Positions 1-18,638 of a stretch of DNA of 64,000 nucleotides are shown in pieces. The DNA lies in contig NZQV01000007.1 in assembly GCA_002696035.1 (NCBI GenBank), positions 1 to 64,000 of the forward strand, in the 5' to 3' direction. The notes below the pieces were generated by a model. It worked only from the letters and a program-made list of their open reading frames with translations, did no database searches and was not told where the DNA came from. The DNA is from Balneola sp. Its GTDB lineage: Bacteria; Bacteroidota; Rhodothermia; Balneolales; Balneolaceae. The first letter of the stretch is position 1, and each line of letters starts with the position of its first letter. A program made the position numbers and the translations under genes.

Positions 1-130
1 ACTTTAACAGAATAGTCTGAAGTCGCTTAGGTACTGGGCTCGGCTTCCGGCGAATGTCAATCAGTACCTACACATGTAGATGCTAACAGGTCTACCTTCC
101 CGGACCGGGGTTCGACTCCCCGCACCTCCA
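1..130 (+). ncRNA. ssrA: tmRNA, 3' part (5' end outside window)
   Basis: This is the 3' portion of transfer-messenger RNA, which rescues stalled ribosomes. The last 35 bases form a tRNA-like acceptor and T arm, with the GGTTCGACTCC T-loop at 110-120 and a 3' end in CACCTCCA. The preceding stretch contains the helix and pseudoknot-type segments seen in tmRNA 3' halves. The terminal CCA is not encoded. The gene is cut by the window edge, so the tag-peptide reading frame is not visible. Its 3' end is the integration site of the following mobile element. Confidence 0.88.
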
Positions 131-131
131 C
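117..131. repeat. attL core (15 bp)
   Basis: TCCCCGCACCTCCAC is identical to 18624-18638. It covers the 3' half of the tmRNA T stem and the acceptor strand, the usual crossover region for tmRNA-targeting tyrosine integrases. Integration here preserves a complete tmRNA 3' end on the left side. Confidence 0.85.
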
Positions 132-144
132 TATATTAATTTTA

Positions 145-296: not shown

Positions 297-1382
297 ATGA
301 GCAGAGAGATCCCAGATGTAATACTAAGACACGATAAAAGAAAGAAGGGTAAGTCCTATTACTTGGACTATCATTTAAACGGAGAAAGGCGCAAAGAGAG
401 AATCGGGTTTGTAACAAAAAACCAAGCTAATCAAGCCAGGGCTAAAAAAATTGATGAGCTACTTAATCAGGCTGGTATAACGACTGGGAGAAAAAGAATC
501 AGCCTAACGCAGGCTATTGAAATTCACATGGGGATCAAAATGAGAAATGTCAAAGAAAGTACTCTTAAAAAATACCGCGCGAACAAGTATCATCTTATTG
601 AGGCAATTAAAGATGTGGGTGAAAAATATTTCAAAGATGTGGCCACCATATCTGAAGCTCAATTTGAGTTGTTAGCTGACACCTTAAAGAGCAGGTCAAC
701 ATCGGACCATAGGAAAAATAACCTTTTATATTTTCTAAAGGCTGTTGAAAATACAGCTATCAGAAAAGGGTATATGCAAAAAAAAGTCTCATATGACGTC
801 AAAAGTAAAAAACCAGATCCAAAATTAAAGGCACAATATTTTACCAAAGAAGAGCTGAAAGATGTTTGGAAATGCTCTGATAAGTTTTACTTGGACTACT
901 TTAAATTCTTTGTCTTTACAGGGCTTAGGTTGGGGGAGTTTATCAATCTCAAGTGGGAGAACGTTGATTTTGATAACAAGGTAATATCTATCGAGAAATA
1001 TATTGAAGACGGTGAGTTAATTTGGGAACCAAAGACAAAATCTTCTATTCGAAATGTACCCTTGAGTTCTGAAGCTTCTGATATTTTAAAAAAACAAAAG
1101 GGGAAGCATGATGTTTTTGTTTTTACGTCCAAGAAAGGGAAGAAACTCCATCCGAATACAGTTTATGGAGCTTTCAAGAGAGCTGTGAAGAAAGCAGAGG
1201 TTAGTGATGATAAAACAGTACACACATTAAGACATACATTTGCTTCACAGTTAGCTCAAAAAGGGGTAGTGCTATATAAAATTGGTACTTATCTAGGGCA
1301 CAGTAAATCTGAAACAACTCGTATTTATGCTCATTTGAGCCCATCTGACGATGCTGAGGTTTTGGGTCAGATTGAAGTTTAA
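297..1382 (+). CDS. int: Tyrosine recombinase / phage-type integrase
   Basis: This 361-aa site-specific recombinase would catalyse integration at, and excision from, the ssrA 3' end. The N-terminal part (about 1-60) is basic and resembles an arm-binding domain. Residues about 75-160 form a core-binding SAM-like helical domain, and 180-360 the catalytic domain. The catalytic set is visible: R211 (in FTGLR), a lysine near 246, H309 and R312 (HTLRH), H335 (LGH) and nucleophile Y344 (RIYAH). The ATG at 297 gives the normal family length, and no strong ribosome binding site precedes it. It uses only TGG for its tryptophans and ends in TAA, unlike the TGA-containing genes downstream. It lies next to attL, as expected. 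Confidence 0.93.
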   Translation: MSREIPDVILRHDKRKKGKSYYLDYHLNGERRKERIGFVTKNQANQARAKKIDELLNQAGITTGRKRISLTQAIEIHMGIKMRNVKESTLKKYRANKYHLIEAIKDVGEKYFKDVATISEAQFELLADTLKSRSTSDHRKNNLLYFLKAVENTAIRKGYMQKKVSYDVKSKKPDPKLKAQYFTKEELKDVWKCSDKFYLDYFKFFVFTGLRLGEFINLKWENVDFDNKVISIEKYIEDGELIWEPKTKSSIRNVPLSSEASDILKKQKGKHDVFVFTSKKGKKLHPNTVYGAFKRAVKKAEVSDDKTVHTLRHTFASQLAQKGVVLYKIGTYLGHSKSETTRIYAHLSPSDDAEVLGQIEV

Positions 1383-1965: not shown

Positions 1966-2319
1966 ATGACAATAGACGAATATATAAAGCAATTTGAAGC
2001 TACAGAGATAAAAGATAATTGAATTAATAGAGAGCTTATAAGAGCTCATCAATACAGAGAGTTAGGTAAATATCATAGGGATTATATAATTGTCCCAGAT
2101 ACATACACAACACCTGAAGAGACGATCAAGCAGCTAAGCTTACCTGCTGCTGTACTAGAAGCCACTAAAATTTACTTCCAGGATGTACTGGATATTAGAA
2201 AAGATCATGCTGAGAGTGGTGTATACCATGAATTTAGTAAGGTTTTCTATGGTCCTGAATTTTGCTGGTTAGGGACAATAAAGCCACTTCTAGGAATTAA
2301 AATTAACGAAAACCAATAA
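1966..2319 (+). CDS. Hypothetical protein with in-frame TGA (codon 19)
   Basis: A 118-codon frame (ATG at 1966, TAA at 2317) is interrupted only by TGA at 2020-2022, after MTIDEYIKQFEATEIKDN. Reading TGA as Trp gives a continuous 117-aa, mostly helical acidic/basic protein. A second tryptophan (TGG) lies near the end. No family was recognised. It is the first gene after the promoter at 1873-1901 and is followed 14 bp later by the helicase gene, so it is probably co-transcribed. Under the standard code only an 18-residue peptide, or a product started downstream, would be made. It could alternatively be a pseudogene. Confidence 0.55.
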
Positions 2320-2333
2320 AAATTAAAGAAGCG

Positions 2334-3686
2334 ATGGAAATATTAGAACAGAAAAAGAAACAAGAATATAAAACAGACTTTGATGATCAGTCACCGGTGC
2401 AGGTGCAAAAACCAATCAGTATGGAGGAGTTTTGGAAAATAAAACTTGAAAATATCTACTACTACTCCAAAGACTTTTATGAGATTGTATTATCTGATAA
2501 GGGTATAGACCTGATTAAAGTTAGCAGCGAAACTGTTTATGTGCTATCTCAGGCTGACAGTCACGAAGAACAGAAAAAAGTAAGGCGGTGGGTATTGCAA
2601 AATAAGCGGTTGAAAAAGCTGCCTGATGTAGAAATTATTAATCACATAGGGGATGAGAGTTATTATGAGTTTGATGGAGATACCATTAAAGCCTATATAG
2701 CTCTTACACCAGTTGAAGAAGAAAACAATGACTTTATTGATGCTATTATAGATAATGCCTTTGGAGAGCATGCTGAGTGGTTTAGACAGTATCTCGCTAT
2801 GTTTGCTTATACCTCTCACAAGCGTTTACCTATGTTAGTCTTGTATGGTAAAAGAGGGACCGGTAAAAACGCTGTCGCCTGAATAATGCGTAGCATGTGG
2901 GCTGGACTCTCTACTAAATGGGATGGTAAAAAGGGAAGGTTCCAACCTGAGGAAGAGAAACGCTTTGCATATGTGGATGAGAATGGGACCTTTACCAAAG
3001 AGCAATATGAAGATTTTAAAGCCAAAAATGGTAATGAATACTTCACTGTGGAACTGAAATACAGAGACCCTAAAACGGTTAAAAATAATCTGTGTTTAGC
3101 GTTGATGAGTAATAATAACCCTCCTATGTATGTCAACTCGGATGAGCTGCCTACTGATGAGAAGGATAATCAGTTCTTTGTGTTAGAAATGACAAATAAG
3201 CCGGATAAGAAAGACCCGGACATCTTTAAAAAGATAGAGCGTAAAATTGGGCATTACGTACGCACCGTTTTAAAAGATGAGTTTGATCGAATCCAGGATG
3301 AAGGTATCAGTGATGGGTGTAGGTATGGTATTCCGGTTCCTATAACTCCAGAAGAGGAGCAGATGTTTCAAATGAACCAAACTCAAACGTCCATCCGGGC
3401 TGATGATGCTATCCTTGAGATACTAAATATTATTGAGGATAGACGAAATTGGTCAAATTGGTCTAGAGGTTTGATAAATACTATTTGTAAAGGAACAATC
3501 CCGGTGTTTTTATTAAGAAAGGCTGGAGGGAATTTAGATGCTGTAAGAAAAGAACTGCAACGCAGAGGAGTTTTAAGGCGAGGTGAATCTGAGGTAATCA
3601 GTATTGGTGGTAAAAAACATAGATGCTACCACATTCAAAATGTACCTGATGAACTTAAAGGTCACATTAAACTAGAAGACGATTAA
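2334..3686 (+). CDS. SF3-type replicative helicase with in-frame TGA (codon 183)
   Basis: The reading frame of 450 residues plus TAA resembles phage/plasmid primase-helicases of the P4/D5 SF3 class. The Walker A motif is GKRGTGKN (172-179), with Asn where Ser or Thr is usual. The in-frame TGA is at 2880-2882, four residues later (NAVA-stop-IMRSMW). A Walker B-like segment (RFAYVDENG) and the SF3 motif C-like ALMSNNNPPMY follow beyond it. The ATPase therefore needs readthrough to be whole. The protein has seven other Trp codons, all TGG. It probably unwinds the origin of the excised element together with the primase at 3950. The alternative is a gene broken by one nonsense mutation. Confidence 0.72.
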
Positions 3687-3713
3687 CAAAAATGATAATG
3701 TGTTCGCTGCAGC

Positions 3714-3915
3714 TCCGTAACTCTCCGTAACTCTAAAAAACCCTACAAACAGCCTTTACAGGGTCTACAAGGTATATATAGTAACAGTTACAGAGTTACA
3801 GCTAAATAAAAAAATATATAGAGGGCCTTATAAAAGGTTTGTTAGCCCTTGTTACTGCTGACCTGTCTTTAAAGGACTTCTAAGGCCGATTACGGTTACA
3901 GAGAGATTTCGCAGC
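3714..3915. repeat. Iteron-like repeats, candidate replication origin
   Basis: The 263-bp gap between helicase and primase genes holds a perfect tandem 10-mer TCCGTAACTC (3714-3733). The reverse complement of GTAACTCT occurs at 3792-3799 and a related GGTTACAGAGAG near 3895-3906, all in AT-rich sequence. Repeats with both orientations beside replication genes suggest an origin or autoregulatory site. No protein-coding frame was found here. Confidence 0.4.
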
Positions 3916-3949
3916 GGTTGCATTATCACTAAAAAGCACAAAAAACGAT

Positions 3950-4891
3950 ATGAAAAACGATATAAAAGACACACAAATTAGTTATTACCACGTAGCAAAA
4001 TCTACAAACTGCTGAACAGTAACGCTCGGCGGTTGGATGAATATTACTATAAATCCAAAGCCTTGGATGAAGATGTTATCTCTTAAATACCGGGAGACAG
4101 GAGACAAACAGGATAAAGCTAAGCTACCAGCTATTACACCTGGTGGAGTATTTACCCCAAATAGTAGAGTAGCAGATAATGTAGTACATAAAACGGGGCT
4201 GGTCTGCTTCGATATAGATGCTAAGGATAACACACATATCCAGGATTGGGAGAAAGTTAAAGAGGAGCTCATACATAATAAGTATATCATCTTTACAGCT
4301 CTTTCAACTAGTGGTAAAGGGTGCTATGGTTTTGTCAATGTAGAGGACCCGGATAAGCAGGAGGAGCACTTTACACAACTCTCAGCTGATCTAAAAAATA
4401 CCTATGACCTTGCAGTTGATTCTACTAAAGGAGAAAACTGTAATGATTTAAGGTATTACTCATACGATCCTCAGCCTTTTTATAATCCGGAATGGGAGAC
4501 CTATAAAAAGTTGCCCGTAATTAAATTTAGCAAACCAGTTTACCGTCCTAAATCTAAAATAGACTCACCTGATAAAACAATAAAGAAGGTCAGAGCGGTC
4601 ATCAAAGAGGTCCAAGACCGTAACATAGATCTCAACCCTGCCTATGATTATGAGAGGTACAGAGCCTTAGCCTGGGCCTTTTGTGATCACACAGTTAGCC
4701 CATATAACAGGGAGCTTTTTCATGATGCTATGAGGACTCACAGCAGGTATAATTACACGGTATCCGATAAGGAATTTAACAAACTTCAGAAAAGCTACAA
4801 GCAGGGCAAGACAACCATTGCTACATTCTTTAGTATATGCAAGAATCAAGGCATAAACCTAGGGGAGGTATATAAGAACAGGAGTATCTAA
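3950..4891 (+). CDS. VirE-N/BT4734-like primase with in-frame TGA (codon 22)
   Basis: The frame starts at ATG 3950, meets TGA at 4013-4015 (after STNC) and continues in frame to TAA at 4889, giving 313 aa. The first 29 residues (ISYYHVAKSTNC-stop-TVTLGGW) fit the usual N-terminus of the VirE-N/BT4734 primase-like domain, so the upstream start is favoured over the internal ATG at 4037. The catalytic-looking acidic pair is D88-x-D90 (GLVCFDID). A glycine-rich TSGKGCYGF segment follows, and residues about 215-305 look like a PriCT-2 primase C-terminal domain. Its other five Trp codons are TGG. It would prime replication alongside the SF3 helicase. Confidence 0.72.
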
Positions 4892-4919
4892 AAAATATTT
4901 AATGTATATATAATTACTC

Positions 4920-4948
4920 TTGAAAACATACAATAAATAGAATATTAT
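4920..4948 (+). promoter_or_regulatory. Sigma-70-like promoter upstream of the NUMOD gene
   Basis: TTGAAA and TATTAT are spaced by 17 bp, about 22 bp upstream of the ATG at 4971. It shares the -35/-10 geometry of the promoter at 1873-1901. Confidence 0.45.
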
Positions 4949-4970
4949 TAAATAAATAAGAGTAGAAATA

Positions 4971-5300
4971 ATGAAAAATAACGACAAAAGACACAGCAAG
5001 GAATTTAAAGAATTCCAGAGCAAGAGAATGACAAAGTATTTAGCTGAGAATCCTCATCCTACAAAGGGCCTTCCACGCTCAGAGGAGGTTAAAGCACAAC
5101 AGTCTAAAAAAATGAAAGAATATTGAGAGGCTAATAAGCAGAGAAAAACAGAACTTCAAAAAAGGGTACGTCACATTGACTCAGATAGGGAGTTTGCTTC
5201 AATGGGTGAAGCAGCTCAAGAATTTAATATTAACATATCTACAGTCAGTCGCCATTGCTCAGGTCGATTTGATAAAAAGAAATTCGAGTTTATCTCATAA
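4971..5300 (+). CDS. NUMOD-like DNA-binding protein with in-frame TGA (codon 52)
   Basis: A 109-codon frame (TAA at 5298) is interrupted by TGA at 5124-5126. The sequence has two imperfect NUMOD3-like segments (SKRMTKYLAENPHPTKG and SKKMKEY-stop-EANKQRK). It ends in a NUMOD1-like helix-turn-helix (SMGEAAQEFNINISTVSRHC). In such basic repeats an aromatic Trp commonly follows KEY or KRY, so reading TGA as Trp is natural here. No nuclease domain is attached, which suggests a stand-alone DNA-binding regulator or a homing-endonuclease remnant. It is followed by a strong hairpin at 5326-5351. Confidence 0.62.
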
Positions 5301-5325
5301 TAGTACATTAACCTTATGTAATACT

Positions 5326-5351
5326 GGTAGGGGCTGTGAAGTGCCCCTACC
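5326..5351 (+). terminator. Hairpin terminator after the NUMOD gene
   Basis: A perfect 9-bp stem (GGTAGGGGC / GCCCCTACC) with an 8-base loop is followed by a weak TATTTA tract. It closes the TGA-containing module. Confidence 0.5.
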
Positions 5352-5474
5352 TATTTAACTAACTGTAGTGCCACACTTTTACCATCAAATAGATCAGACC
5401 TCACAATTTAAATTTAAACTTTTGTCACACTCTAATCCCTTAAACTAAAAAAAGAAAGCTATAGCTCACTTTAG

Positions 5475-5783
5475 ATCAGCCCTAGTCGGACAGGTAAATA
5501 TTGGCAGCGTTTCCACCTGACATCTTCTTTTATAGGTAGAAAAATTGCTTCTATATTTGCAAGGTATAAGGGTTTTGTTGCGGTTAATGAAGGCAGTAAG
5601 GCCGTTCATTATTCTTATACCAGAAAGTTTGGATTACTGATCGATAGGTTGAATTACCTAGGTTGTCACATTAGGAGGGAACCCGGGGAGGGTTTGCGGA
5701 ACGAGGATAAAATTATTCAAAGGCAAATGGGCGTGATTCTGGTAAAACGGTTTGATGGTAGATGTAGCAAGATTTTAGTATAG
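5475..5783 (+). other. Open frame without start codon, possible gene remnant
   Basis: A 102-codon stop-free frame ending in TAG at 5781 contains segments such as IGRKIASIFARYKGF and VHYSYTRKFGLLIDRLNYLG, but has no ATG near its beginning. No family was recognised. It may be the C-terminal remnant of a gene cut at a module junction. The rest of 5352-5868 shows no convincing gene. Confidence 0.25.
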
Positions 5784-5868
5784 TAGGGGCAAAGACTCGG
5801 TGTAATGATAACAAATAGAATCAAGAACTCTAACGCTTATAAAATAACAGGTCATTAAGAGAATTTTT

Positions 5869-6924
5869 ATGTCCATGAAAAGTAAAACCGAAAGGCACAT
5901 GCGATTATACCTGTATATGGCCCTGCTTACCCTTTTTACCGCCTGTGGAATTTTAGGTAGTGATGATGACAAAGAACCCCTCGAGCCGGGGCCACGCAAT
6001 TATGAGTGGGCCGTAGACACCCTAAACAGCCCCCCCGGAGGATTTATTTATGACATTTGGGGTTCCTCACCTGAAGATGTATGGGCCGTAGCCGGTGGAG
6101 GGCTGAATAACCTGTGGCATTTTAATGGGAAAGAATGGAGCGTGTGGGACGAGCGGGTGGGTTCTGCTTTTTATAGTATTCATGGTTTTGCCCAAGATGA
6201 TATTTGGATGGGAGGAAATGATGGGCAATTGTATCATTTTGATGGGCAAGGATGGTCTCAAACCTATACTTTTGAACGGACAGGATTAAATAACTCTAGA
6301 ATTACAGATTTACAGGGAACTTCAACTTCTAATTTATATGCAATTGGGACAGCAACGCCAGAAAGCGGACCATTTCGAGTGAGTTTTATTTTACATTACA
6401 ATGGACGGATTTGGCAGGAATTGCTCACAACTGATTTTGGAGTACAGTTTCAACAACTAAGTACAGAAGAACTGCCAACGATTAGGGGTGAAAAATACCA
6501 TCAAGCATCTTCTGATACACTATTATTTTATCAATATTCGAATGAAAATTTAAAGGAGATTCTATCAAAAACAGATAACGAAGTTAATTCTATGTCAATG
6601 AATGATATAGGTAACTCTTTGTATTATTATATAGATAATCAAATATTATCATTTAAAAACAATGACTTTCAGGAAATATTATCGTTTCCAAATATGGAGT
6701 TAATTATAAGATTAGATGGGCGTCATAGAAAAGATCTTTTTCTACATACTCGGGATAAAATATTTCATTACAACGGAGAAAATAAAATTCTTCTTCTGGA
6801 AGATTTACCCCGGAATGTATTCCGTTCCCAACTGTTTTCTGATGAAGTTTTTTTTGTAATTAGGGATTACGAAAACGGAACAAATTTAGTTTACCATGGA
6901 ACTTTAACTCAGGAGGAAGAATAA
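5869..6924 (+). CDS. Lipoprotein with W-rich repeated segments
   Basis: The 351-aa product starts with a lipoprotein signal (lipobox LFTAC, Cys about residue 26 from the first ATG). An inner ATG at 5899 would give a more compact signal peptide. Repeats of the type YDIWGSSPEDVWAVGG / LWHFNGKEWSVWD (about 60-140) resemble beta-propeller lipoproteins found as paralogues in Balneola-like genomes. Base composition changes sharply near 6290: the first 420 bp are GC-rich like host genes, while the remainder is AT-rich with rare codons. This suggests a chimera between a conserved N-terminal part and a different C-terminal part. The function is unknown; it is probably anchored to the outer membrane. 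Confidence 0.7.
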   Translation: MSMKSKTERHMRLYLYMALLTLFTACGILGSDDDKEPLEPGPRNYEWAVDTLNSPPGGFIYDIWGSSPEDVWAVAGGGLNNLWHFNGKEWSVWDERVGSAFYSIHGFAQDDIWMGGNDGQLYHFDGQGWSQTYTFERTGLNNSRITDLQGTSTSNLYAIGTATPESGPFRVSFILHYNGRIWQELLTTDFGVQFQQLSTEELPTIRGEKYHQASSDTLLFYQYSNENLKEILSKTDNEVNSMSMNDIGNSLYYYIDNQILSFKNNDFQEILSFPNMELIIRLDGRHRKDLFLHTRDKIFHYNGENKILLLEDLPRNVFRSQLFSDEVFFVIRDYENGTNLVYHGTLTQEEE

Positions 6925-7180
6925 TGCCACATAAAAAAAGGGGCGTGCGGTAACACGATCCCCTGTGACTCAAAAACAGCCGATTCAGGTTGGTACCCTT
7001 CTGTCTGCCATCTTATATATTTATACTGGGTGAAAAAATAACGAAATTATCCTCGTTGCGGCGAAACCGCTTCTAACAAATTTTACATAATTATTATGGA
7101 GTAAGTTTATTTCCAAAGTTGCTTGTTTAGAATTTTTAGCCGTTAATTAACTCAAAATCTCCGCGTATTCTAAGACTATA

Positions 7181-8194
7181 TCAAGAGATTCCCGTCATTT
7201 CATGTTCATAGATTTTCACATAAGGGGTTCCTCGCTTGATCACAGCAAATGCCCGGTAGATTAATTTGCACACCACTGCATTCTTCACGCTTTGGGGATG
7301 TTTGCCTTCAGCACATTTGCGCTGGTAATAGGCACCAATTTCAGGATCGTACTGGATGGCGGAATTTACACCATTGAGCAGCAGTGTTTTCATGCGGGCG
7401 CATCGCCACCGACTGACCCGGTCCGGACTCCGATGGTTCCCTGACTGGTTCGGAAACGGGGCGCTGCCGGCAAAACAGGCAAACTCCCGGCTCGTGGAAA
7501 ATCGGGTAAATCCTTCCGTATAGACCAACAGCCATCCGGCAATAACCGGTCCGATGCCGGGGATGCTGACCAGCAGCTCATATTGGCTCCGAATGCTACT
7601 ATAACTACGCACCAGTTTTCTGATTTTGCGATCTACCTGTTGGAGTTGCCGGGATAGCCCCTCATGATGAACCTGCATCTGATCGTTTATCTCATCGAGA
7701 TTGGCTACTTGCCCAGTTAGGGTATTGGCTTTGATGGCGTTTGTTAACCCAGTCCGCATTTTTACCAACTTTTCCCGCCATAACAACCATCCGCGCAGTT
7801 CCAGCAGCGCTTTGCACGGCAGGTGGCTGGCAGACAACCGGTCTCGAAACCGCCAACCATATTCGGCCAGTCGCGCGGCATCAATCGGGTCGGACTTCCC
7901 ACGCCGGATTCCCAACGAGCGTTGGACCTGTGCTGCGGCCACCATCACATACCGAACGCCTGCCTCTTCCAGCATCGCCGCCAATAGTAGCCCATACGCG
8001 CCCGTATGCTCGAAACACACCATCATCTTCTCCAGGGAAATCCCCTGGCCCGACCACCTGTCCAATAGCTGGTGTATCCCGTCTGGGCTATTCCCAATGT
8101 CTCCAATCGCCAGCGGTCGGTTTTGCCCGTCATTCACCTGCCAATCCAGCCGCTGTTTGGATATATCAATCCCTGCATAATAGTTCGCTTCCAT
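7181..8194 (-). CDS. IS110-family transposase (DEDD)
   Basis: This 337-aa recombinase has an N-terminal RuvC-like DEDD domain (AGIDISKQRLDW near the start, then KSDPIDAARLAEYGW). Its C-terminal Transposase_20 domain has LLVSIPGIGPVIAGWLL, and a serine-containing region lies around GSAPFPNQSG. The start is placed at 8194 because AGGAG lies just upstream and MEANYYAGIDIS is the conserved N-terminus; a longer frame to 8245 would run through the leader. It is GC-rich compared with its neighbours. IS110 elements lack inverted terminal repeats and use a bridge RNA from the non-coding end, so exact IS boundaries cannot be drawn. Confidence 0.92.
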   Translation of the reverse strand: MEANYYAGIDISKQRLDWQVNDGQNRPLAIGDIGNSPDGIHQLLDRWSGQGISLEKMMVCFEHTGAYGLLLAAMLEEAGVRYVMVAAAQVQRSLGIRRGKSDPIDAARLAEYGWRFRDRLSASHLPCKALLELRGWLLWREKLVKMRTGLTNAIKANTLTGQVANLDEINDQMQVHHEGLSRQLQQVDRKIRKLVRSYSSIRSQYELLVSIPGIGPVIAGWLLVYTEGFTRFSTSREFACFAGSAPFPNQSGNHRSPDRVSRWRCARMKTLLLNGVNSAIQYDPEIGAYYQRKCAEGKHPQSVKNAVVCKLIYRAFAVIKRGTPYVKIYEHEMTGIS

Positions 8195-8390
8195 CGGTTT
8201 TTCTCCTATATTATTAATGGATAATCCGTTAACTGGGGCGGCCAAGCCACTATTACCTTTACCGGCTCTTGGTGAGCTTACATTCTAATTAGTGCATCTT
8301 TGGTCGAAAAGCTGCCGGGGACTCATACGCGGGATAGCTCTTTGCTGGCCCGTTATTTAGGTCACCCCGGCAGTCCCAGTTCACGATTTT
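8195..8390 (-). ncRNA. Candidate bridge-RNA region of the IS110 element
   Basis: The non-coding stretch upstream of the transposase is GC-rich and structured. A perfect 9-bp inverted repeat (CTGCCGGGG at 8312-8320, CCCCGGCAG at 8365-8373) encloses a 44-base loop. The heptad-rich phrase GGCCCGTTAT recurs at 8348 and 8432. IS110-group elements encode their bridge RNA on this side. The RNA limits and guide loops are not determined, so this is an inference from position and structure. Confidence 0.4.
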
Positions 8391-8665: not shown

Positions 8666-9379
8666 ATGAGCGATAAACCAATTCGAGATTATATTTTCCC
8701 TCTTATTAGAGCTAAAAGAATAGCGAATAAAATAAAAGAACCTGAATTAATTGGAACTGGATTTCTGATTGGTAAAAACGGATTTGCTTTAACTGCAGCC
8801 CACGTAATTGAACAACTGACAGATAATAAAAATAATGACGATGTCATTCTTGCTCTGTTTGTTGTAAATGGAAAATGGAATGCGATTGAAATCGCAAAAT
8901 ACGAGAAACATCCAAGCGAGGATATTGGAATAATATTACTTGATAATTATAAGCGTGAATCTTTTTTAAAGATTGTAAATACCTCTCATTTATCAGCTTG
9001 TGAATATCATTGTTGGGGATATCCTCACGAAGTAGCTAAAGAATTAAAGAAATTAGAAGAGAATGCACCTCAAAGACCAGATTTTATATTCACACAAGGA
9101 TATGTCCGAAGAAGAATCAACAATGAACTATATCCAACTATAATTTTTAGAGGAAAACAATTTTATGAATTGAGTGAAACTGTCGGCGGAGGAAATTCTG
9201 GAGCACCACTAATATATAAATTATCGGTAGGCAAAAATGTATGGGAAGTATTTGGAATTTACATTGGAGAAAAAAGTGAGGGAAATATTAGCTATGCAGT
9301 TAGGTCAGATGCTTTTGCAAATTGGATTCCTGAAATTTTGGATAAATCTATAGAAGATGAAAGTAAAAACGTCGCCTAA
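8666..9379 (+). CDS. Trypsin-like serine protease (cassette-borne)
   Basis: This 237-aa protein has a chymotrypsin/trypsin-2 fold signature. The triad appears as H46 (TAAHVIEQL), D86 (SEDIGIILLD) and S178 (GGGNSGAPL). No signal peptide is present, so it should act in the cytoplasm. The stop codon TAA lies inside the left core (GCCTAAC) of the attC-like site that follows, a typical integron-cassette layout. Cytoplasmic trypsin-like proteins of this kind occur in accessory and defence loci, but no partner is visible here, so the substrate is unknown. Confidence 0.82.
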   Translation: MSDKPIRDYIFPLIRAKRIANKIKEPELIGTGFLIGKNGFALTAAHVIEQLTDNKNNDDVILALFVVNGKWNAIEIAKYEKHPSEDIGIILLDNYKRESFLKIVNTSHLSACEYHCWGYPHEVAKELKKLEENAPQRPDFIFTQGYVRRRINNELYPTIIFRGKQFYELSETVGGGNSGAPLIYKLSVGKNVWEVFGIYIGEKSEGNISYAVRSDAFANWIPEILDKSIEDESKNVA

Positions 9380-13896: not shown

Positions 13897-14316
13897 TTAA
13901 TTTTGTTCTTTGAATAATGTCACCAAGAATGTTTTAAATTTATGAAACAATTTTTCTCTATTTTCATCATTCTTCTGCTCAAAATGATGAGATTTTGTCT
14001 TCTGATCTGCCTCCCTTCCAGAATGAACTCTCTGCTCTGACCACCTTTCAGCCCAAATTACTTCCCCTTCTTTTACCCAGTAATGAGACTTACAATCAAA
14101 CTCCCAGTTTCCTATAGAAGGATATAGGGATACGGATTCGCCGTTATAGGTTAGCTTCCAATCGGTAGGAGATAATGGGGTAACTACTTGCTGATCACAG
14201 CCGCATACGCAGTTATGAACAGCCGTATCGTAATCTAACGAAATATAGATTACCCCATCCTCCATATCCTCATGTTCAGGGATGAATTCTACAAACTCAT
14301 GATCTATGATCTTCAT
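13897..14316 (-). CDS. DUF6527 family protein of ubiquitin-like operon
   Basis: The product of about 139 aa (start MKIIDHEFVEF; a 4-residue longer start at 14328 is possible) has a metal-binding-looking core HNCVCGCDQQV...PLSPTDWKL...SIGNWEFDCKSHYWV...GEVIWAE. The spaced Cys and His residues are typical of DUF6527. This family is found next to multiubiquitin and ThiF/E1-like genes. Its start overlaps the end of the upstream ThiF gene by about 20 bp, indicating translational coupling. The C-terminal 40 residues are charged. A role as ligase or processing partner is inferred from context only. Confidence 0.72.
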   Translation of the reverse strand: MKIIDHEFVEFIPEHEDMEDGVIYISLDYDTAVHNCVCGCDQQVVTPLSPTDWKLTYNGESVSLYPSIGNWEFDCKSHYWVKEGEVIWAERWSEQRVHSGREADQKTKSHHFEQKNDENREKLFHKFKTFLVTLFKEQN

Positions 14317-15475
14317 TGAACATCTCATTTACATTTGTGGAATAGAAGGCAGAAAACTCTCCCTCTTCATCCTGATAGAACTGAATATGTTTCTTCCACT
14401 TGATCACTGCCATGATTGCATTTAAGGCATTCAGGTCAGCGATTTGAATATTGGAAGCATATTCATCTGCATCCCGGTCCGTTAATGAAATACGGCTCGG
14501 GATGTGATCGGTCATTTGATCTGTGACCAATGTTGAACGGGCTGTTCCCAATAGGCTTTGACCTGCCACGGTCACATCAAGACCGACATCTATAAAAGGA
14601 ATCTTTTTGTCAATCAGGTAATCAATAATACCCTTCTTAGCAGAACCCTTGTCAATGCATAGGAATACAAAGTCCAACTCCTCTAACATGGACATATTTG
14701 ATTCATCCAGATATATGGGATGGGACTTTATCCCGTGGTGCATTTTTGAATAGATCATATTGAAGTAGCCCGTCTTAAAATACTGCCTGTCAAGCTGTTT
14801 TATGGTCGGAGCGCCGGGAGACCGGAAAGCATTGTGCTGCAAGAAACGGTCCCCATCATAAAGATGGATTTCTTGCACCGGTGTCTTGGCTACTTGATCG
14901 AGTACATAAGAACCCGTACCTCCAAGTCCAATTATTCCGATTTTATGCCCTTCCAGCTTCTCTGATATTACTCCTATTTCAGCACGAGTTGAATTCGTAT
15001 CAATGTAATTGAATACAGATTTGTCCTCCGGTACTTCAATAACCTCGTAAACTCTTGCCGTTTTCGAGGAGTCCATTGAAATTGCTGGCGCGGATATGAT
15101 TTCGATGTACCGTGTAATCTTATGGTGGTAATCTTTATACCCATGTGGTTTCGGTTTATTTGAAAAGGACCGATTCACTCTAATGTCAGTTGATAGGTTA
15201 CGGGTAGTTTGGTTGTGCTCTATTGCCGTAATTACGCTACCATCTTTATTACAGGGTTGATCACCAACAAAATGGATTACATGATTTTTCGGTTTAGCGG
15301 TTTTATTACCAGCCAGATCCAAATCCGTAACAAGAACCCCTTCTCCGATTTCGGAGGAGGAGTTCACATACGGAATACGGTGTACAAGCAAGTGCCCATC
15401 TCTGAGCTCTAACTTGTACCCTTCATCTTGTAGTCGTTTTAAATCAGAGCTATGATTTATCAGTGGCTGTGACAT
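14297..15475 (-). CDS. DUF6791-ThiF (E1-like adenylyltransferase)
   Basis: The 392-aa protein carries an N-terminal DUF6791 domain (about 10-150, with NHVIHFVGDQPCN) fused to a ThiF/E1-like adenylation domain (about 160-390). The nucleotide loop is GLGGTGS (183-189). A conserved acidic YDGD and RSPGA segment follows, and C273 (FVFLCIDKG) lies in the position of a candidate catalytic cysteine. E1-like enzymes adenylate the C-terminus of ubiquitin-like proteins. It overlaps the upstream multiubiquitin gene by 26 bp and the downstream DUF6527 gene by about 20 bp, so the three form one operon. Confidence 0.82.
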   Translation of the reverse strand: MSQPLINHSSDLKRLQDEGYKLELRDGHLLVHRIPYVNSSSEIGEGVLVTDLDLAGNKTAKPKNHVIHFVGDQPCNKDGSVITAIEHNQTTRNLSTDIRVNRSFSNKPKPHGYKDYHHKITRYIEIISAPAISMDSSKTARVYEVIEVPEDKSVFNYIDTNSTRAEIGVISEKLEGHKIGIIGLGGTGSYVLDQVAKTPVQEIHLYDGDRFLQHNAFRSPGAPTIKQLDRQYFKTGYFNMIYSKMHHGIKSHPIYLDESNMSMLEELDFVFLCIDKGSAKKGIIDYLIDKKIPFIDVGLDVTVAGQSLLGTARSTLVTDQMTDHIPSRISLTDRDADEYASNIQIADLNALNAIMAVIKWKKHIQFYQDEEGEFSAFYSTNVNEMFNEDHRS

Positions 15476-15731
15476 TGAACACCATCCCTTTTTTAATTAT
15501 GACTACATCACCTTTAACCATCACACCTTTAGGTTTTTGGTTAGCTCCCCGTTTATAGGTAACGGTATATACCATATGGGGTACGAATTTAGCTTCAGGA
15601 AAGGCAAGTTTTACAACTTGTTCGAATGAAAGCTTCTTTTTGGTTACTTCTTCTTTACGACCATTTACTATGATCTCTGTCGCCCTGGTATCGGGCTTCT
15701 TATCTTTAGATTTCTGTTCTTTCGTAGACAT
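15450..15731 (-). CDS. Multiubiquitin-domain protein
   Basis: The 93-aa protein has a charged N-terminal tail and one multiubiquitin-type beta-grasp domain (TEIIVNGRKEEV...LSFEQVVKLAFPEA...YTVTYKRGANQKPKGVMVKGDVVIIKKGMVFNV). This is the bacterial ubiquitin-like partner of ThiF/E1 proteins. It lacks a C-terminal Gly-Gly in the visible sequence (it ends NVTATDKS), so any conjugation would need a different terminus or mechanism. It is the first gene of the operon. Such operons are proposed antiviral or protein-modification systems; function here is inferred. Confidence 0.78.
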   Translation of the reverse strand: MSTKEQKSKDKKPDTRATEIIVNGRKEEVTKKKLSFEQVVKLAFPEAKFVPHMVYTVTYKRGANQKPKGVMVKGDVVIIKKGMVFNVTATDKS

Positions 15732-16123: not shown

Positions 16124-16149
16124 TAAGGAGAAACAAATCATGGCGGGTG

Positions 16150-17211
16150 ATGAAAGGACTTAACAAGCGAATAAAAAATGCACGTCTAATGAAGGGATTT
16201 TCACTTCAGGCGTTATCAGATAAAATGAATCAAAAAATTTCTCGACAGGCTTTGCATAAATATGAAAAAGGATCTGTTGAACCTGACTTAAATATGATTC
16301 AGGATATAGCTGAAGCCTTAGATATGAAACCCGACTACTTTTTCCGGGAAGTTTCGGTTGAGATTGAGGCTATTTCTTTTCGAAAGCTATCTTCTTTATC
16401 GAAGAAGGAACAAGGCCGTATTGTCGAAACTGCAAGAGATTTTTTAGAACGTTACCTTGAATTAGAGCAAATTATTGGAAAGCAACCTTTCGTTGAAAAT
16501 CCAATTAAAGATATCAAGATCAGCAATAAAGAGAATGTTGAAAAGGCTGCACAGCAACTAAGAGACTCTTGGGGACTTGGAATTGATCCCTTATACAATA
16601 TACTTGGCCTTTTAGAAGATCAGGGCATAAAAGTAGTGGAGTTAGAAGGAGATAATTCTTTTGATGGTTTGTCTACTTGGGTGAATGAGTCTATTCCTGT
16701 CATCGGACTAAATAAAGTAGTCAAAGACAACAAAGACCTTGACCGGTATAGATTTAATGCGCTACATGAACTGGGGCATCTATTCTTAGGCCTACAAGAC
16801 TTCTCCGATGAAGAACAGGAAAAACTATGCCATTATTTTGCCGGAGCCATGCTATTTGATAAGAGAAGCATAGGAAAGGAACTGGGTATGAAAAGACAGA
16901 ATATTTCTCTTCAAGAACTTAAAGCTATTAAAAAGCAGTACGGAATTTCTATGCAAGCTACTGTTTATAGGCTAAAAGAATTAGGGGTTATTAGCCAAAT
17001 CACTTATCAAAACTTTTTCCGATTCATAAATAAACACGGCTATAAAAAAAATGAAAAGGGACTTGCTGAGTATAATGGAGAGGAAGAAGCACTTCGTTTT
17101 GATCAATTGATTGGTCAAGCTCTCATTGAGCAACAAATCACTATTTCAAAAGCTGCTGCATTACGAAACCAGAGAGTGACTCAATTTAGAAAAGAATTTT
17201 TACTGGGGTAA
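16150..17211 (+). CDS. XRE regulator fused to ImmA/IrrE metallopeptidase
   Basis: The 353-aa protein has an N-terminal Cro/CI-type HTH (about 5-65, with ISRQALHKYEKGSVEPDL) and a C-terminal ImmA/IrrE zinc peptidase domain with H206-E-x-x-H210 (HELGH). ImmA proteins cleave repressors of integrative elements or act as antitoxins. An ATG (16150) or the GTG just before it (16147) can start it. An upstream ATG at 16140 with the better ribosome site (AAGGAG) opens an out-of-frame 7-codon reading frame that overlaps this start. The PIN gene follows with its ATG abutting the stop codon, so the pair is coupled. Confidence 0.88.
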   Translation: MKGLNKRIKNARLMKGFSLQALSDKMNQKISRQALHKYEKGSVEPDLNMIQDIAEALDMKPDYFFREVSVEIEAISFRKLSSLSKKEQGRIVETARDFLERYLELEQIIGKQPFVENPIKDIKISNKENVEKAAQQLRDSWGLGIDPLYNILGLLEDQGIKVVELEGDNSFDGLSTWVNESIPVIGLNKVVKDNKDLDRYRFNALHELGHLFLGLQDFSDEEQEKLCHYFAGAMLFDKRSIGKELGMKRQNISLQELKAIKKQYGISMQATVYRLKELGVISQITYQNFFRFINKHGYKKNEKGLAEYNGEEEALRFDQLIGQALIEQQITISKAAALRNQRVTQFRKEFLLG

Positions 17212-17721
17212 ATGAAAGTAGCAATAACAGATGCGTGTATTTTTATAGATCTATTGGAATCGGAGGCATGCACCGCATTCTTTCAGTTACCGTTAGATAT
17301 CGTGACTACGCGGCAGGTCTGGGGTGAACTTGAATCAGAACAAAAAGCAGTATTGCAACAATGGATTAAGACGAAGGACTTATCCATAATTGAGGTTCAA
17401 GGAACCTTAGAAATACTAAGAACCAACTACAAACTTTCTGTTCGGCTATCTATAGCAGACCTATCTGTTTGGTCTGTATGCCAGAAAGAAGGTGGTGTAC
17501 TTCTTACCAGTGATGGCACCCTTAGAAAAATGGCTCGAGAAAATAATATTGACACTCATGGCTTGCTTTGGGTGTTTGACCAGATTGTTAAGAACAAGTT
17601 GCTAACGGTCATTGAGGCTACTGAAAAACTCCAAAGTGTTTTTAACCAAAACGAGTATTATAAAGCTGATGTAAAACTTTTCGATGCTTATGAAGAAATG
17701 ATAACAAAGTGGCAAAATTGA
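17212..17721 (+). CDS. PIN-domain nuclease-like protein
   Basis: The 169-aa PIN-fold protein has D7 (MKVAITDACIF), a central Glu region (VWGELESE) and downstream acidic residues (SIADLSVW, LLTSDGTL). These fit the metal-coordinating set of PIN ribonucleases. It begins directly after the XRE-ImmA stop. XRE-ImmA/PIN pairs behave like toxin-antitoxin or element-control modules. The pair probably stabilises the element or reacts to stress or phage; this role is inferred from arrangement. It ends in TGA. Confidence 0.8.
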   Translation: MKVAITDACIFIDLLESEACTAFFQLPLDIVTTRQVWGELESEQKAVLQQWIKTKDLSIIEVQGTLEILRTNYKLSVRLSIADLSVWSVCQKEGGVLLTSDGTLRKMARENNIDTHGLLWVFDQIVKNKLLTVIEATEKLQSVFNQNEYYKADVKLFDAYEEMITKWQN

Positions 17722-17839: not shown

Positions 17840-18508
17840 ATGATATACCAGGCAAGACAAATAATCTCTCTCCGCGATCACACAAAGAGTGTGTACCTTT
17901 TACATATAGCATTTCCAGAATTGATAGAAATAAATGTGGATTTGGCTGAAAACAATCAACTATGGGGTGAGAAGCCTGCTGGTAATAAAATTGTTGATGA
18001 AAAAGAACTATCAGGATTTTTTGATAAACATGGCCATTATGTATTTAGCAGGAAAATTGAACAGCCAACTGCAATATATTTTGAATTAGAGAGGGGCTAT
18101 GAATTTCAGGATCTGGTTTTTGAAGATTCAGGTATGTTGAAGAATATTTTTCTCTCAGAAAAGGATAGGCTGATATATGCATTCTATATGACAGGCAGTA
18201 CTGACATTGTAATCCAAGGTCGTAAGGTAAAAAGTAATTACATTGAAAGCCTGATTAGTAAAGACCCAACTGATGCTAGAATAAGATATATATTATTCGA
18301 AAGGTGTAAGATGGATGATTCAAAACCTGAGTATTCCTCTGATGATATGCTCACAGCTACTGAAGCCGCTGAATTTTTAAAAATGAGTAAAGGTACATTC
18401 CAGAATAAGCTCTCAAGAGGTGAAATTATTGATCCTGTAAGCATAGGAGGGAGCAAAAGGTGGAGATATGAAGATCTAATAGACTGGATAAACAATTTAA
18501 GGCCCTAA
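17840..18508 (+). CDS. Excisionase-like HTH protein
   Basis: The 222-aa protein has an uncharacterised N-terminal part (about 1-165). Its C-terminal winged-helix/excisionase domain has LTATEAAEFLKMSKGTFQNKL followed by GGSKRWRYEDLIDWI, the arrangement of MerR-like/Xis DNA-binding domains. It ends exactly where the right-hand 11-mer pair begins and is only about 115 bp from attR. A recombination directionality factor is therefore likely. The long N-terminal part is larger than typical Xis proteins and may add regulation. Confidence 0.75.
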   Translation: MIYQARQIISLRDHTKSVYLLHIAFPELIEINVDLAENNQLWGEKPAGNKIVDEKELSGFFDKHGHYVFSRKIEQPTAIYFELERGYEFQDLVFEDSGMLKNIFLSEKDRLIYAFYMTGSTDIVIQGRKVKSNYIESLISKDPTDARIRYILFERCKMDDSKPEYSSDDMLTATEAAEFLKMSKGTFQNKLSRGEIIDPVSIGGSKRWRYEDLIDWINNLRP

Positions 18509-18529
18509 AAACAAGACGAAAACAAGACG
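18508..18529 (+). repeat. Tandem 11-mer pair, candidate integrase arm site (right)
   Basis: Two copies of AAAACAAGACG match the left pair at 205-226 exactly, in the same orientation, 94 bp from the att core. They overlap the last base of the excisionase-like gene. Confidence 0.6.
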
Positions 18530-18623: not shown

Positions 18624-18638
18624 TCCCCGCACCTCCAC
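18624..18638. repeat. attR core (15 bp)
   Basis: TCCCCGCACCTCCAC is identical to the tmRNA 3' end at 117-131. An additional 10-mer TAACAGGTCT occurs in the tmRNA (84-93) and here (18604-18613), at a different distance from the core. Confidence 0.85.

Follow-up and report, generated by a model that had tools for sequence, protein, structure and literature searches.

In-frame UGA codons, probably read as tryptophan, in the replication genes of related integrative elements: a candidate translational lock

In phage satellites of the Staphylococcus aureus pathogenicity island (SaPI) type, a helper protein activates the element by relieving repression. A different form of control has been proposed for the stop-codon-recoded bacteriophages (codes 4 and 15) of Borges et al. 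(2022), which we cite through PMC11210395 and PMC10879173; the relevant portions of these two papers report that such phages time their lytic or late genes by recoding and employ suppressor tRNAs. The paper on the Codetta screen states, in the sections used here, that models of mobile elements and viruses were left out and that pseudogenes can mimic Trp at TGA (PMC8629427). Here we analyzed a stretch of 64,000 nucleotides from Balneola sp. (GCA_002696035.1, contig NZQV01000007.1; C11:1-64000 of genome G000 in our set), hereafter the window. It holds an integrative element of about 18.5 kb, inserted at the gene for transfer-messenger RNA (tmRNA), in which four consecutive genes each contain an in-frame TGA. 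Our preferred reading, to which we give a probability of roughly 0.6, is that the replication module of this element uses UGA as Trp and is translationally locked until UGA decoding is supplied in trans. The sequences show Trp identity within the family, purifying selection, confinement to the module, an unsuccessful search for a suppressor tRNA and an early position of the TGAs, whereas the lock, the silence of the module, its regulation and the source of the decoding are inferred.

The four frames had been noticed in a first-pass annotation of the window, and its description of them was confirmed: each is open under translation table 4 with exactly one TGA (at 2020, 2880, 4013 and 5124), all terminate at TAA, and together they contain 13 TGG, or 17 Trp codons when the four TGA are included. 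The first gene (1966..2319, + strand, TGA at codon 19) encodes a 117-aa protein for which no homologue was found in Pfam, PHROG, IMG/VR and further searches. The second (2334..3686, + strand, TGA at codon 183) encodes a DUF5906 (SF3-type) helicase of 450 aa, and Pfam PF19263 (DUF5906) spans its residues 170-269 (E 8e-12) in frame across the TGA. The third (3950..4891, + strand, TGA at codon 22) encodes a BT4734-like primase of 313 aa that matches Pfam PF08800, with phrog_14787 covering residues 6-303, again in frame across the TGA. The fourth (4971..5300, + strand, TGA at codon 52) encodes 109 aa resembling a homing-endonuclease tail (NUMOD-like); phrog_314 matches residues 6-104 (E 1e-4) in frame across the TGA, which is the only Trp of this protein, and a further match to T4-type homing endonucleases is too weak to decide the TGA column. 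Database matches thus continue in frame past the TGA in all but the first gene. Were the four TGA random nonsense substitutions, the chance of all being TGA, calculated from the genes' own codons, would be 0.002-0.005, a figure from which the absence of frameshifts is excluded. IMG/VR yielded no close relative of the window helicase, primase or first gene, and GTDB genomes and phage records yielded none of the helicase; distant relatives of the primase occur in 33 phage records and one plasmid.

Searching 190 genomes with the window primase returned 18 places in 15 genomes, the window's own included, and 15 of the 17 others were read upstream, the places in G079 and G056 being left out. In L022 and L023, two loci of the same genus, primase codon 18 is an in-frame TGA, and in each of them four genes are open only with a sense TGA: the helicase (three TGA in L022, two in L023), the primase (one each), orfA (two each) and orfB (three and four). 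The window element and these two loci share the TGA-bearing primase family and a terminal helix-turn-helix (HTH) gene. A profile made from the alignment of the L022 and L023 helicases (A1) matched 10 places in nine of the 190 genomes, each with one to four in-frame TGA within the match and with no TAA or TAG. A profile of eight fused primase-helicases (A5), searched in 244 genomes of the class, recovered the same 10 places, distributed over six genera of one order, with two to six TGA each and a single TAA that is the gene's terminal stop. The full helicase or primase-helicase genes of the relatives carry two to six TGA and related genes altogether one to six, so that exactly one TGA per gene, the pattern noted in the first-pass annotation, is a peculiarity of the window copy and not a rule. 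Outside the order, 11 loci from GTDB genomes are free of TGA in the matched stretch (L093 and L094 each have one outside it), as are nine viral loci, and the A1 profile had no match in IMG/VR. For the fused primase-helicase of the relatives, matches were obtained to PDB 7ola, PDB 7pds and the NrS-1 primase; the first two we take to be SaPI or SaPI-type replication proteins. For the primase-helicase of L129, distant relatives were found in 795 phage and 202 plasmid records; its predicted structure (mean predicted local distance difference test score 73.5, predicted template modelling score 0.47) was not used as evidence.

We then considered which residue the TGA stands for, using an alignment of ten recoded proteins and five standard-code outgroups. 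TGA cells fall in columns with a TGG-encoded Trp elsewhere in 35 of 43 cases, 19 of them with an outgroup Trp, which is close to the result of the same test for TGG itself (57/69) and far above that for other residues (0.5-18%, the highest being Tyr). The residues opposite TGA are Trp 155 times, Tyr 40, Phe 31 and Cys 5 times, and on these counts a selenoprotein reading, in which TGA would face Cys or selenocysteine, was rejected. Between L022 and L023, TGA and TGG interchange at helicase codon 60 and orfB codon 57. Two Trp columns of orfA are invariant, the first being TGA in all seven copies and the second TGA in six and TGG in one. Overall, these results support UGA as a sense codon for Trp in the replication module of this element family, as the first-pass annotation had suggested, although the support comes through the relatives, by their mostly-Trp columns, selection and unbroken genes, and not through the window's own columns.

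Selection was evaluated between L022 and L023 downstream of the TGAs. The ratio of nonsynonymous to synonymous substitution rates (dN/dS) was 0.08 for the primase, 0.21 for orfA and 0.12 for orfB, so that relaxed selection, for which the first-pass annotation had proposed to look, was not seen in three of the four genes; for the helicase the proportion of synonymous differences was saturated (0.87) with a nonsynonymous proportion of 0.14. Four TGA-free neighbour genes gave dN/dS values of 0.07-0.20. Eight TGAs stand at identical codons in the two species despite near-saturated synonymous sites. Across 23 recoded genes we counted 66 internal TGA, 91 TGG and no TAA or TAG, a zero that is partly by construction since the frames were chosen as open under table 4; the A1 and A5 homology searches, which count any stop, are an independent version of this test, and in the related copies they met only TGA besides the one terminal TAA. 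These observations bear on the possibility of pseudogene decay, in which each TGA arose by a separate nonsense mutation, in most cases from TGG; the first-pass annotation had kept decay as its weaker alternative. Pseudogenes commonly undergo the TGG to TGA transition according to the cited part of PMC8629427, and a broken integrase fragment adjoins the module at about 1510-1645. Decay is nevertheless disfavoured by purifying selection, with dN/dS well under 1, by the absence of other stops, by the TGAs retained in two species and by a pattern that is identical in all 10 places found with the helicase profile, and we consider it highly improbable. The pseudogene objection raised in the Codetta paper is answered by the Trp columns, the selection and the unbroken genes.

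The data point to a change of code that is limited to a single functional module of mobile elements and occurs in hosts where UGA is a stop. The recoded functions are the helicase or primase-helicase, the primase and two small partner genes. No internal TGA was found in the other genes that recur among the loci, namely a YqaJ exonuclease, a DUF932 protein, an AAA protein with its partner of 740-750 aa, a RadC-like protein and the integrases. Four other genes of L022 and L023 have no TGA in the shared frame, and three longer TGA-containing readings in these loci overrun a stop or begin further upstream. Five neighbours that appeared to bear a TGA were checked (the AAA gene of L126, a gene of L132, the RadC-like genes of L128 and L129 and the HTH gene of L127), and the TGA is taken as their stop because homology ends at the first TGA, or before it in the AAA gene of L126. 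The integrase frame of L129 first meets a TGA at codon 390, which we read as its stop. In all, TGA terminates 27 of 115 neighbouring open reading frames (ORFs) that are 150 aa or longer. A count of 510 TGG in 136 standard ORFs has no value as a test, since the lack of TGA was a criterion in choosing these frames. G+C content at third codon positions was 0.26-0.54 in 16 recoded genes and 0.29-0.53 in nine neighbours, and this similarity therefore gives no sign of a foreign low-GC donor using code 4. An integrase and cargo genes without internal TGA would be workable in a standard-code host, as expected if the elements replicated mainly in some other host with UGA as Trp and were dormant passengers here. 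We hold this to be very unlikely, since the 10 helicase-type members all lie within one host order, the 11 outgroup and nine viral relatives are TGA-free in the matched stretches, and the YqaJ, DUF932, RadC-like and AAA genes of the same loci have no TGA.

If UGA is Trp in the module, a decoder is expected, and the first-pass annotation had proposed a search for tRNA-Trp(UCA) or another suppressor tRNA; none was found in the 15 genomes or in the element loci. A UCA-anticodon tRNA of canonical shape gave no exact match in the 15 genomes (for G096, among the matches listed), and neither did a pattern with a variable-length loop; both patterns demand a GAGC-type D arm and a canonical T loop. ARAGORN detected no suppressor tRNA in the window, the element loci and the tRNA loci of G000, relaxed settings giving only noise, and Rfam at permissive thresholds found none in the window, L022, L023, L125, L129 and L132. 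One tRNA-Trp(UCA) pattern run across viral contigs returned nothing. Two TCA loop-like matches of an anticodon pattern run on 10 genomes (L112 and L118) were discarded as ARAGORN did not recognize them as tRNAs. In the window's own genome no tRNA-Trp of any kind was found by several searches, one of which scored 150 of 207 candidates, so parts of this genome are probably missing. Release factor 2 (RF2) is present in 14 of the 15 genomes, the exception (G083) being 81% complete, and all 14 copies have the autoregulatory frameshift site. The tRNA-Trp(CCA) was inspected in 13 genomes, G000 and G096 not among them; the anticodon stem has 5 bp in 12 of the 13 and G24 is present in all. Only the tRNA of G059 has a 4-bp stem (27-43 unpaired), a form reported, in the cited part of PMC13092985, to read UGA in E. 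coli.

These searches leave some room for a cognate or unusual suppressor tRNA in the host or the element that was missed, through an odd structure or because its sequence is unassembled, and acts constitutively, the module being co-adapted to it and ungated. The missing tRNA-Trp of G000, the restricted D arm and T loop of our patterns and the 4-bp stem in G059 all point that way. However, no UCA tRNA came to light in 15 genomes, the two TCA matches were not tRNAs, and the tRNA-Trp examined has a 5-bp stem in 12/13 and G24 in 13/13. Constitutive decoding would also read through the host genes stopped by TGA (27/115) and leaves unexplained why TGA occurs only in the replication module. We regard a missed constitutive tRNA as possible but rather unlikely.

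Signals of readthrough were also examined around the TGAs. The following base is C after 4 of 66 TGA compared to 12 of 91 TGG (p 0.19), with a mild purine excess after TGA (p 0.02), and the minimum free energy of the 60 nt downstream is -9.9 after TGA vs -9.8 after TGG (p 0.74). No strong shared sequence context was found at 64 TGA sites. UGA is the leakiest stop in many bacteria, and leaky readthrough by the ordinary tRNA-Trp(CCA) might act as a throttle that keeps the replication proteins scarce; the tendency of the TGAs toward gene starts would suit this. With up to six TGA per gene, though, basal readthrough multiplies to essentially nothing, and neither C at the next base nor downstream structure is enriched relative to TGG, which makes a throttle improbable in our view. 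Editing of the mRNA from adenosine to inosine at UGA, after which ribosomes would see UGG, accounts for Trp without any tRNA, as UGI is decodable as UGG in principle. The lack of a strong shared context and of a shared downstream structure argues against it, the editing enzyme itself not having been searched for, and we give editing hardly any weight.

The position of the TGAs within the genes was tested by randomly reassigning TGA and TGG to the Trp sites within each gene (20,000 shuffles, with p values that ignore common ancestry). In 20 of 23 genes a TGA is the first Trp codon (12.9 expected, p 0.00015), while 18 have a TGA within 25 codons (10.1 expected, p 0.0 as printed). All eight primase-helicases have such an early TGA (4.5 expected, p 0.008). 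The orfA copies of L127 and L130, whose starts are uncertain, were left out of the test; with their starts as called, a TGG precedes the first TGA in each. The column of the early TGA differs by element, being 21 in L125, L127, L128 and L129, 8 in L126 and L131, and 27 in L130, L131 and L132, and this recurrence of an early TGA in differing columns is more telling than the p values.

Several observations weigh against a recoded and locked module and have to be set beside this evidence. A UGA decoder was not found in the genome and element-locus searches, nor was a gene common to all element loci that could serve as a trigger. For eight of the 43 TGA cells, none of the other sequences has Trp in that column. 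Five of the 23 genes lack an early TGA, which stands at codon 183 in the window helicase, at codon 52 in the fourth gene of the window and at codons 37-39 in three orfA copies, and the shared ancestry that the placement p values ignore reduces what they can say. Among the 15 loci with a BT4734-type primase the TGA is absent in 12, only L022 and L023 having it while the start in L029 is uncertain, and codon 18 of the L022 and L023 primases aligns by eye with non-Trp residues of standard-code homologues. In the window itself, the primase column W22 holds K, Q, T, G, V or a gap in 15 aligned homologues and never Trp, and the helicase W183 aligns with Asn in two weak phage relatives. The helicase TGA also comes late, at codon 183, behind three TGG. 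The sole other genome match to the window helicase, in G044 (E 8e-4), has no internal stop, and the A1 profile does not recover the window helicase, which belongs to another branch; it is therefore tied to the family only via its neighbouring genes. The first-pass annotation had proposed to ask whether homologues have Trp at the window's TGA columns and had named non-Trp residues there as speaking against its proposal. Where the columns could be aligned, Trp is not what they contain, and by that rule the window alone is unconvincing. That the window's own four TGAs mean Trp is thus suggested by kinship with the relatives.

Under the preferred reading of a recoded, locked module, host ribosomes would stop early in the recoded genes, mostly within about 25 codons, as expected of a host that terminates at UGA, possesses RF2 and has yielded no cognate tRNA. 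The integrated element would then make no replication proteins, and its integrase and cargo genes, being UGA-free, would stay translatable. Replication proteins would appear only once UGA-to-Trp decoding arrives in trans, with a co-infecting phage carrying its own suppressor tRNA as one candidate source and a host or phage state in which RF2 ceases to compete with tRNA-Trp as another. Purifying selection on the recoded genes implies that their product is needed at some time, and a conditional lock opened from outside the element would be the simplest reading. Given the satellite life-style suggested by a SaPI-like primase-helicase and defence genes, a helper phage would be the most attractive outside source. 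More speculatively, and with clearly less confidence than in the lock itself, such elements may use the genetic code as a sensor: their replication genes, unreadable in the resting standard-code host, would become readable when a recoded phage enters, its suppressor tRNA unlocking a satellite that is a parasite of this phage, or in an RF2-depleted state during infection.

A genetic code is commonly assigned to a whole genome or phage, whereas the change described here would be at the level of a module, and it recurs in six genera of a single order. Should the lock be real, it would act as a translational switch that governs when integrated elements replicate, satellites might through it be coupled to recoded phages, and the purpose of stop-codon recoding in mobile DNA would become testable. 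Standard gene calling splits such genes and the Codetta screen, in the sections cited, omitted models of mobile elements and viruses, which suggests why such cases have been missed.

The limits of the window element were read from its ends. The 3' part of the host tmRNA gene (ssrA), its integration target, lies at 1..133 (+ strand; Rfam RF00023, 67.3 bits), the 5' part of the same gene being found on contig C15 of G000. The left attachment core CCCCGCACCTCCAC (14 nt, read in the sequence) is at 118-131 on the + strand and recurs as CCCCGCACCTCCAC at 18625-18638 (+ strand), the element's right end. A 22-bp direct repeat, AAAACAAGACGAAAACAAGACG, is present inside both ends in exact copies (205-226, + strand, and 18508-18529); we propose that these repeats are integrase arm sites. 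The recurring 14-nt end, the 22-bp repeat and the integrase define the integrative element and its size. The tyrosine integrase (297..1382, + strand; Pfam PF00589, E 2e-35) is in the standard code with three TGG and no TGA. At the right end, also in the standard code, is an HTH_17 (excisionase-like) gene (17840..18508, + strand; Pfam PF12728), which alignment and clustering show to be the terminal HTH gene common to L022 and L023; the L023 copy matches TIGR01764 slightly below the cut-off. Among the relatives, an integrase was seen in L127 and L129 only, and a search of nine other loci for attachment repeats of at least 18 bp found none. No structural gene (capsid, tail) was recognised in the window element among the subset of ORFs scanned.

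Other features of the element and its surroundings were recorded. Adjoining the recoded module, 1510-1645 reads by eye as the frameshifted remnant of a second integrase C-terminus. A 354-aa ORF on the minus strand (7181-8245) resembles an insertion-sequence transposase and lies inside the element. The gene at 8666-9379 encodes a trypsin-like protease with a PADLOC LmuA match over about 185 residues (E 7e-12), and at 13897-15731 the element carries a ubiquitin-like operon of defence type with genes for DUF6527, DUF6791-ThiF (E1-like) and multi-ubiquitin proteins. At 16147-17721 an HTH-ImmA/IrrE peptidase gene precedes one that matches PIN below threshold, and the two may be a toxin-antitoxin or regulatory pair. 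Elsewhere in G000, on contig C12, a second tmRNA gene (L089 1760-2065, tag GKNNILPLFGGAGVKAAA) stands beside small phage-like standard-code genes. C12 was also considered as a recoded helper and rejected: in 22002-52753 no long gene requires a sense TGA, and a few short one-TGA frames are present.

Near the modules of the relatives, L022 and L131 are two different recoded modules about 31 kb apart on contig C12 of G004. The recoded primase-helicase of L128 is on a very small contig (G091 contig C72, 5795 bases), perhaps a separate replicon, with no end overlap found. L126 has near its module (4489-8145) a retroelement that by eye resembles a diversity-generating retroelement, with reverse transcriptase, accessory protein and target-like repeat. 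A class II prokaryotic Argonaute (pAgo) adjoins the L023 module and a SIR2-pAgo the L131 module. A conserved stretch after orfB in L022 and L023 was considered as an RNA and set aside, as it reads by eye as a gene for a small basic protein on the opposite strand.

No report of module-limited UGA recoding in integrative elements was found among the matches listed from the open PMC literature, from which subscription papers are mostly absent. Compared to SaPIs and other phage-inducible chromosomal islands, the elements are alike in having integrase genes (seen in the window, L127 and L129) and primase/helicase genes, separate primase and helicase in the window and fused in relatives, and defence genes near several modules; they would differ in the switch, which is proposed here to be UGA decoding, helper-phage dependence also being a proposal in this case. 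Genome-wide reassignment of UGA to Trp (Mycoplasma, Zinderia and others, in the cited part of PMC13092985) has the same codon meaning, but the hosts studied here keep RF2 (14/15), stop at TGA and yielded no tRNA-Trp(UCA). Decoding by a tRNA-Trp with a 4-bp anticodon stem does not fit the hosts in general, as the feature occurs in one of 13 (G059). Unlike in the recoded phages, it is the replication genes that are recoded here, the ORFs scanned in the window element include no recognised structural gene, and the window and element loci yielded no suppressor tRNA. Like the phages of code 4, the modules have in-frame TGA at Trp positions (35/43 cells), and the integration genes (window and L129) are free of the reassigned stop. 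As in those phages, in so far as the cited portions describe them, a stop codon is reassigned within a standard-code host and the recoding is proposed to time expression.

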